From contig DASXGW010000001.1 of assembly GCA_036488875.1 (NCBI GenBank), forward strand, positions 434,001 to 498,000: a stretch of 64,000 nt of DNA. Reading direction: 5' to 3'. The position numbers and the translations under genes are program-made. The DNA is from Candidatus Baltobacteraceae bacterium (GTDB lineage Bacteria > Vulcanimicrobiota > Vulcanimicrobiia > Vulcanimicrobiales > Vulcanimicrobiaceae). Position 1 is the stretch's first letter. Each line of letters opens with the position of its first letter. The notes under the pieces are model-generated. The model saw only the letters and a program-made list of their open reading frames with translations. It did no database searches and was not told the DNA's origin. This document shows positions 12,965 to 22,774 of this stretch, piece after piece.

Positions 12965-13014
12965 AATGGTGGGCGGTATCAGGATTGAACTTATGACCTC
13001 TTCCGTGTCAAAGA
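12965..13014 (-). repeat. tRNA-Val(GAC) 3'-half remnant, candidate attachment site
   Basis: Fifty nucleotides match 22091-22140 with only two mismatches, in the same orientation 9126 bp away. The matched part of the intact tRNA runs from the anticodon loop through the variable region, T arm and acceptor 3' strand to the encoded CCA. Beyond 13014 the match stops and no 5' acceptor strand, D arm or paired anticodon stem is found, so this copy is not a working tRNA. A duplicated anticodon-loop-to-3'-end segment is the classic footprint of a tyrosine-recombinase island. A plain tRNA pseudogene is the alternative. Confidence 0.75.
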
Positions 13015-22092: not shown

Positions 22093-22167
22093 TGGTGGGC
22101 GGTATAAGGATTGAACTTATGACCTCTTCCGTGTCAAGGAAGCGCTCTCCCACTGAGCTAACCGCCC
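22093..22167 (-). tRNA. tRNA-Val (GAC), CCA encoded
   Basis: Folds as a full cloverleaf. Acceptor GGGCGGT pairs with ACCGCCC, followed by discriminator A and encoded CCA. The D arm contains GCTCAGTGGGAGAGC, the anticodon stem is CTTCC/GGAAG with loop TTGACAC (anticodon GAC), and the T loop is TTCAATC. Its 3' half is repeated at 12965-13014, making it the likely integration target of the segment to its left. Confidence 0.96.
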
Positions 22168-22266
22168 GCACCGGCCAAACCCCCGGAGTATAGCGACCCG
22201 GGGCCCGGGGCGTCAAACGGTTGTACGGGCTCGGCCCCAAGACCTTCAGGACCTTGCGATGCGCCT

Positions 22267-22307
22267 GCCCTTCGACTTCGCGCCTGCGGCGCTACGCTCA
22301 GGATGAC
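22267..22307. repeat. Dispersed intergenic repeat, copy 1
   Basis: Contains GCCCTTCG and CTCAGGATGAC around a GC-rich palindromic core (CGCCTGCGGCG). A shorter copy with the same two ends lies at 42264-42287, also between genes. This looks like a REP-type element family. Only two copies are visible here. Confidence 0.45.
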
Positions 22308-22322
22308 ATGCTGTTGACACGT

Positions 22323-22351
22323 TTGACATCGTCATTTGCGCGTGATACATT
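22323..22351 (+). promoter_or_regulatory. Strong sigma-70-type promoter
   Basis: TTGACA at 22323-22328, a 17-bp spacer, then TACATT at 22346-22351 preceded by TG-n (extended -10). A second TTGACA lies 9 bp upstream. It points into the small-ORF leader at 22402, leaving an untranslated leader of about 45 nt. Confidence 0.75.
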
Positions 22352-22401
22352 CATTCGAACCTAAACGTTACTACGCAACCCGAACTGCGAAAGGAGGCAC
22401 G

Positions 22402-22491
22402 ATGACTACGAATCTGTGGAATCCTATTCTCGCGCCGCAATGCGGTGGCGGGTCGATGCTTTCTGGGCCTTCGCGTGGTGGACCGACGTAG
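22402..22491 (+). CDS. Small leader ORF (29 aa), possible attenuator peptide
   Basis: ATG 22402 follows a perfect AAGGAGG 4 nt away, giving M-T-T-N-L-W-N-P-I-L-A-P-Q-C-G-G-G-S and a TAG stop at 22491. An overlapping frame (ATG 22440, stop 22571) contains four Trp codons including a TGG-TGG pair (22476-22481), in F-W-A-F-A-W-W-T-D. One missing G in the GGG at 22459-22461 would join the two frames. An intrinsic terminator begins 27 nt past the stop. Leader peptide plus terminator fits transcription attenuation. No trp gene is present, and the exact frame is uncertain. Confidence 0.5.
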   Translation: MTTNLWNPILAPQCGGGSMLSGPSRGGPT

Positions 22492-22517
22492 TCATTCGTC
22501 GTTTTCGACCGCTTCGA

Positions 22518-22548
22518 AAGGCCTCCAGGATCGACCCGGAGGCTTTTT
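22518..22548 (+). terminator. Intrinsic terminator between leader ORF and 63-aa gene
   Basis: GCCTCC at 22521-22526 pairs with GGAGGC at 22538-22543, with an 11-nt loop and T5 at 22544-22548. GGCCTTCG at 22466-22473 can pair instead with 22515-22523, which would break the terminator stem. Such a switch is what attenuation needs. Confidence 0.8.
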
Positions 22549-22582
22549 CATTTCACTTTTCACTTCGATAACGAGGCGAATC

Positions 22583-22774
22583 ATGGACCTTTGGTTTGAA
22601 ACCGAGATCCGGATGCGCCGTGACGACGCCTTCAAGTCCGCCGAACGCAGCCGGCTCATACGCCTTGCGGAAAGTGGACGAAGTACGAGCGTACGCACGC
22701 GCATCGCCAACAGCGCTCAAGCGATGAGCGACGCGTTGGCCGCGTTGGCACGAACGTTGCGCGCGCAAGCCTAA
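22583..22774 (+). CDS. Small hypothetical protein behind the attenuator-like leader (63 aa)
   Basis: ATG 22583 with GAGG 7 nt upstream. Sequence style: M-D-L-W-F-E-T-E-I-R-M-R-R, then basic and helical with S-A-E-R-S-R-L-I-R-L-A and A-M-S-D-A-L-A-A-L-A-R-T-L-R. No Cys, His-rich or membrane segment. No family recognised. It converges with the TPR gene, overlapping by 4 nt. It is the only gene that could be controlled by the leader and terminator upstream. Confidence 0.5.
   Translation: MDLWFETEIRMRRDDAFKSAERSRLIRLAESGRSTSVRTRIANSAQAMSDALAALARTLRAQA

Follow-up and report, generated by a model that had tools for sequence, protein, structure and literature searches.

A predicted ribosome-mediated transcription attenuator ahead of a small arginine-rich protein gene in one family of Candidatus Eremiobacterota

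The majority of well-known leader peptides respond to a single amino acid or a single drug. In the window (the whole stretch of 64,000 nucleotides analysed here, from a Candidatus Baltobacteraceae bacterium), a short upstream open reading frame (uORF) and an intrinsic terminator precede a gene for a small protein, and an earlier note had read this leader either as tryptophan-responsive or as a detached leader. The locus raises two questions, namely whether leader and gene belong together and which signal the leader conveys.

Architecture and distribution of the cassette

The earlier note had correctly located the extended −10 promoter, the ribosome site, the 29-residue frame, the terminator with its five T residues and an upstream segment able to pair with the terminator's left arm (Table 1). 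The promoter consists of TTGACA (22323–22328), a spacer of 17 nt and a TG followed by TACATT (ending at 22351), with 10 of 12 consensus matches; two promoter-like sites occur in 1.3 kb (0.5 expected), and no further promoter was called between 22351 and 22583. The RNA would start near 22358. The terminator stem reads GCCTCC...GGAGGC and runs into T5 (22521–22548); it has no entry in a generic terminator scan, probably because of an A/C mismatch in the stem or the long loop. Rfam at gathering scores matched tRNAs alone in the whole window, and none of its RNA families fits the leader. As the note had also observed, no trp gene follows: the small gene, whose product has no family above cut-off, is succeeded by a convergent TPR-like gene (a label from reading the sequence), and no gene for tryptophan or aromatic biosynthesis or transport was found downstream of the leader at the window locus.

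Table 1. Features of the leader and the small gene (window positions).
Feature	Position	Strand	Sequence or basis
Extended −10 promoter	22323..22351	+	TTGACA-17-TGATACATT
Shine-Dalgarno motif of the uORF, AAAGGAGG	22390..22397	+	read in the sequence
uORF, 29 codons and stop, MTTNLWNPILAPQCGGGSMLSGPSRGGPT	22402..22491	+	ORF reading; counterpart in relatives
P1 hairpin within the uORF, CGCCGC/GCGGTG	22433..22447	+	inspection of relatives
Antiterminator left strand, within the uORF (uORF nt 51–82)	22452..22483	+	duplex pairing and co-variation
P2 hairpin round the uORF stop codon, CGACG..CGTCG	22484..22501	+	sequence and relatives, by inspection
Antiterminator right strand (terminator flank, left arm and loop)	22504..22534	+	pairing, co-variation
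Intrinsic terminator	22516..22548	+	stem 22521–22526 with 22538–22543, T5 22544–22548
Small Arg-rich protein gene, 63 aa, MDLWFETEIRMRRDDAF...	22583..22774	+	profile matches, pN/pS, AlphaFold model

The cassette of promoter, Shine-Dalgarno (SD) motif, uORF, terminator and small gene recurs within the window's family, in 26 genomes. When 60 related genomes were searched at the DNA level, eight including the window's own had matched, one of them (L008) through a chance repeat. The locus set was defined by a small-protein profile, which gave 26 strong loci with a gene start among 99 family genomes; a partial gene near tRNA-Val (L035, in G076), whose start is missing, was excluded. A larger profile built from these loci matched 27 of the 99 genomes, and its one weak match in 50 other genomes of the phylum (G042, E 5.9e-5) lies within a 610-aa frame and was taken as chance. 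An SD-type motif, required by our search, a uORF of 26–46 aa and an intrinsic terminator between uORF and gene occur at all 26 loci, and the same promoter type at 25, the remaining locus (L028) being cut by a contig end. A tRNA-Val(GAC) is a neighbour of 23 of the 26 loci, at a distance of up to about 1.5 kb. Homologous tRNA-Val sites were compared in 17 genomes that lack the gene; one of these regions is cut by a contig end, and the promoter/terminator pattern was found in none of the 16 readable ones (12 of the 17 were also read by eye), while the same check recovered promoter, uORF and terminator in six of six positive controls. As leader and gene are either both present or both absent, they behave as one cassette, and the idea of a detached leader was dropped. 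The note had further considered that a base miscount in a GGG, quoted at 22459–22461, might split one long gene. The GGG triplets actually lie at 22450–22452 and 22465–22467, and such an error is excluded, since among the relatives uORF and gene stand in all three possible frame offsets (modulo 3).

The window protein contains 11 Arg and 1 Lys in its 63 residues (9–15 Arg across the 26 members), and M1, W4, R38 and A42 are invariant. The gene is under purifying selection, with pN/pS ratios of 0.28–0.59 in 11 of 11 pairs. An AlphaFold model computed from five sequences consists of two helices (pLDDT 82, pTM 0.38). For the window protein neither Pfam nor NCBIfam yielded a family above cut-off, and we found no relative by PDB sequence search, no Foldseek match with the model and no plasmid-borne relative. 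The Pfam matches listed over the 26 members were each confined to one or two of them (best E 0.00037, in one member) and were taken as chance.

The surroundings of the locus contain repeats. A 47-nt copy (96%) of the 3' part of tRNA-Val(GAC) at 12968–13014 is separated by about 9 kb from the intact tRNA (22094–22170), an arrangement resembling the att sites that flank integrated elements; ORFs resembling a TonB-type receptor and a LuxR-type regulator, among others (names from reading), lie between the copies, and similar partial tRNA-Val copies occur in several relatives. Directly upstream of the promoter, at about 22270–22312, is a dispersed repeat, CTTCGAC..CTCAGGATGACAT. At L020, in the same genus, this repeat is found in the 3' part of the uORF and alters its end, with the antiterminator kept.

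Pairing of the uORF with the terminator

In the window alone, pairing between uORF and terminator is modest (z −1.74, equalled by 11 of 200 dinucleotide shuffles; z −2.76 for the fold of the whole leader), and it becomes convincing only across the relatives. By our reading, at 24 of 26 loci the latter portion of the uORF pairs with the terminator, namely with its flank, its left arm and its loop, and the mean z over the loci is −2.3 against dinucleotide shuffles and −2.1 against codon permutations; at L031 and L032 the pairing is no better than in shuffles (z near zero). With 15 close leaders as input, RNAalifold chose local hairpins together with the terminator, and its covariation term was close to nil. 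The antiterminator was then tested by duplex permutation: the strands were left unchanged, the terminators were permuted among the loci and the duplex energies were compared. Each uORF with its own terminator reached −30.5 kcal/mol versus −25.6 kcal/mol after permutation (z −7.8, 0/20000; 26 loci). The difference persisted for 22 less related loci (z −7.1, 0/20000) and when each of 11 genera was represented by a single locus (z −3.75, 2/20000); in this last set the flank alone (z −0.89) and the loop alone (z −1.26) were not significant. Controls gave z +0.56 for the first 45 nt of the uORF, −0.87 for the first 60 nt of the gene and −2.1 (367/20000) for the 60 nt upstream of the uORF. Since permuting the terminators among loci weakens the pairing, the two strands have co-evolved. 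In another genus, L090 (G021) keeps a long antiterminator (−35.7 kcal/mol) in an unrelated uORF sequence. This locus has the same type of leader (uORF MMMTNIVQTFG..., antiterminator, terminator) before a small protein of different appearance, which is likewise Arg-rich and is unrecognised by the family profile.

We then folded the 26 leaders with a ribosome-sized mask placed along the uORF and computed the probability of the terminator. For the window it was 0.00 in the free leader, stayed at about 0 while the P site lay on codons 0–10 and was 1.0 from codon 12 on; the antiterminator is thus predicted to form when the leader is free or a ribosome sits on codons 0–10, and the terminator once it has passed codon 12. 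The mean over the 26 loci was 0.43 in free leaders and about 0.4–0.55 at most early codons; it reached 0.93–1.00 over the 13 codons preceding the stop and was 0.75 on the stop itself. Terminator probabilities below 0.2 were found in 14/26 free leaders versus 26/650 codon-permuted ones, and, with the right arm not yet transcribed, an antiterminator probability above 0.5 in 23/26 versus 130/650. At equilibrium, 10 of the 26 full-length free leaders favour the terminator, so that there only a kinetic switch would work. Co-variation under permutation and ribosome-mask folding both predict that antiterminator and terminator are mutually exclusive. The note's general reading of the locus as an attenuator leader is supported by conservation in 26 genomes and by the co-variation of the two strands, which, like the predicted switch, come from computation.

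The direction of the response probably is as follows. RNA polymerase would start at the promoter and make a leader whose 29-codon uORF is strongly initiated. A translating ribosome would cover the left strand of the antiterminator (codons about 17–27), allowing the terminator to form and transcription to stop near 22548. If initiation fails, or if the ribosome is kept within roughly the first ten codons, the left strand would instead pair with the left side of the terminator, and the polymerase would read into the small gene. Ribosome shortage, inhibitors of initiation or elongation, and general amino-acid shortage are candidate signals for this ON state. The Arg-rich two-helix protein may then act on RNA or ribosomes under conditions of poor translation.

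Translation as the probable input

The uORF peptide is poorly conserved, with a mean column identity of 23% (24 peptides), and over its first 60 nt three of five pairs show pN close to or exceeding pS, and the other two show it lower than pS (small counts). Codons 2–17 contain no residue that is present in all 26 uORFs, the commonest being N and T (24/26 each), and no conserved codon run was found at the 26 loci. Besides the start, one residue is near-invariant, a Pro encoded within the antiterminator strand, and the conserved Pro-Ser corresponds to CCUUCG of that strand. Such almost free drift of the amino acids, together with an RNA strand that co-varies with the terminator, points to translation as the input. 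Because the peptide is unconserved and lacks a regulatory codon run, the signal most likely is translation capacity, and we regard it as probable that the leader is a ribosome-dependent transcription attenuator responding to this capacity and not to one amino acid or drug.

Part of the weak covariance-model matches in the relatives, seven of which were read, proved to be other probable attenuators of the family; the window's own genome gave three further matches (E 0.007 or worse). A probable tryptophan attenuator with a WWW leader precedes a DAHP synthase in a sister genome (L093, G095), and probable amino-acid attenuators were seen with CCC ahead of a sulfite reductase (L086, G009) and of a peroxiredoxin (L089, G117), and with MCHMC ahead of a sulfonate ABC binding protein (L083/L088; G030, G060). 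As the amino-acid attenuators of this family carry codon runs and the present leader does not, we take translation itself to be its input.

Three other readings were considered. Firstly, a drug might arrest the ribosome at a peptide motif of the uORF and thereby switch the gene on, as in erm- or whiB7-like leaders. The mechanics would be the same, and such uORFs are known (PMC12121999), but the peptide is unconserved save for the Pro-Ser that coincides with the antiterminator strand, and the gene, with no Pfam or NCBIfam family above cut-off for the window protein, looks unlike known resistance factors; we therefore consider an antibiotic-specific leader unlikely. Secondly, the leader could bind a small molecule or, in an autoregulatory manner, the Arg-rich protein itself, with uORF translation merely tuning the outcome. 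Alternative structures by themselves do not name the input, and Arg-rich proteins might bind RNA; however, inspection of the alignments revealed no conserved unpaired pocket, and the strong SD motif and open frame at every locus argue for translation, which makes this reading improbable as well. Thirdly, promoter and terminator bound an RNA of about 190 nt that might be a constitutive small RNA next to an independent, equally unregulated gene. This is very unlikely in view of the co-variation between uORF and terminator, the joint presence or absence of leader and gene and the lack of any other promoter call between 22351 and 22583.

A classical attenuator in which stalling at Trp codons, or at those of another single amino acid, lets the antiterminator form is the least credible reading: the layout resembles trp leaders and the window uORF has one TGG, but Trp is lacking in 17 of 26 uORFs (present in nine), tandem Trp occurs in none of the 26 true frames, no run is conserved of the kind seen in the family's probable amino-acid attenuators, and the covariance search proposed in the note found no match to Rfam Trp_leader, whether at gathering scores or with E values allowed up to 10. 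The four TGG codons cited in the note, TGG-TGG among them, do exist in an overlapping frame, but that frame starts with GTG or an internal ATG and misses a ribosome site of its own. It is peculiar to the window: TGG-TGG is found in the overlapping frame at one of 26 loci, and the equivalent frame has in-frame stops at 15.

Relation to known leaders and possible role

In trp-type attenuators, a leader ORF is combined with an antiterminator and an intrinsic terminator that are mutually exclusive, and the position of the ribosome decides between them. Our leader shares, by prediction, the ORF and the mutually exclusive structures; it differs in that there is neither a regulatory codon run nor a biosynthetic gene downstream, and in that translation passes through the antiterminator strand. 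Ribosome-mediated attenuators of the trp type include examples from Actinobacteria (PMC1262725). The uORFs of E. coli toiL/topAI and actinobacterial whiB7 sense several translation inhibitors and stresses (PMC12121999), as is proposed for the present uORF. There toiL controls topAI translation with Rho polarity (PMC12121999), in contrast to the intrinsic terminator switch described here, where moreover no peptide-specific arrest is indicated.

The closest analogue is the duf1127_1 leader of Sinorhizobium (S.) meliloti, which follows the same logic with another termination device and another protein. In that system a 29-aa uORF in a long leader precedes a small Arg-rich protein, the leader is induced by tetracycline and not linked to one amino acid, and efficient uORF translation accompanies a transcription stop before the gene (PMC12218461). 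Rho-dependent termination is proposed there, with C-rich codons at the uORF start and, as described, no intrinsic terminator (PMC12218461). Here, by contrast, an intrinsic terminator (26/26) competes with an antiterminator whose left strand lies in the second half of the uORF, and the protein has no DUF1127 match: none of the 26 members has PF06568 among its family matches at E up to 0.1, and DUF1127 had no match over the cut-off in the window's own genome. We class the leader as a probable ribosome-mediated transcription attenuator, and neither as a trp leader nor as a DUF1127 system. In the open-licence PMC literature, outside of which most journals lie, we found nothing on Eremiobacterota attenuation with a leader peptide and nothing on Eremiobacterota small RNAs and riboswitches.

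The leader probably reports the ability of the cell to make protein, not the amount of tryptophan, and the small protein, whose gene is under purifying selection, would be a candidate for a stress factor that serves when translation is poor. Tentatively, we propose that one family of an uncultured phylum may possess a peptide-independent sensor of translation capacity that drives an undescribed Arg-rich two-helix protein acting on ribosomes or RNA when translation fails. If true, its logic would be convergent with that of the Rho-dependent S. meliloti leader and would suggest a recurrent bacterial solution, in which small Arg-rich proteins are held off by an efficiently translated uORF. The S. 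meliloti parallel makes this general hypothesis testable in culturable bacteria.
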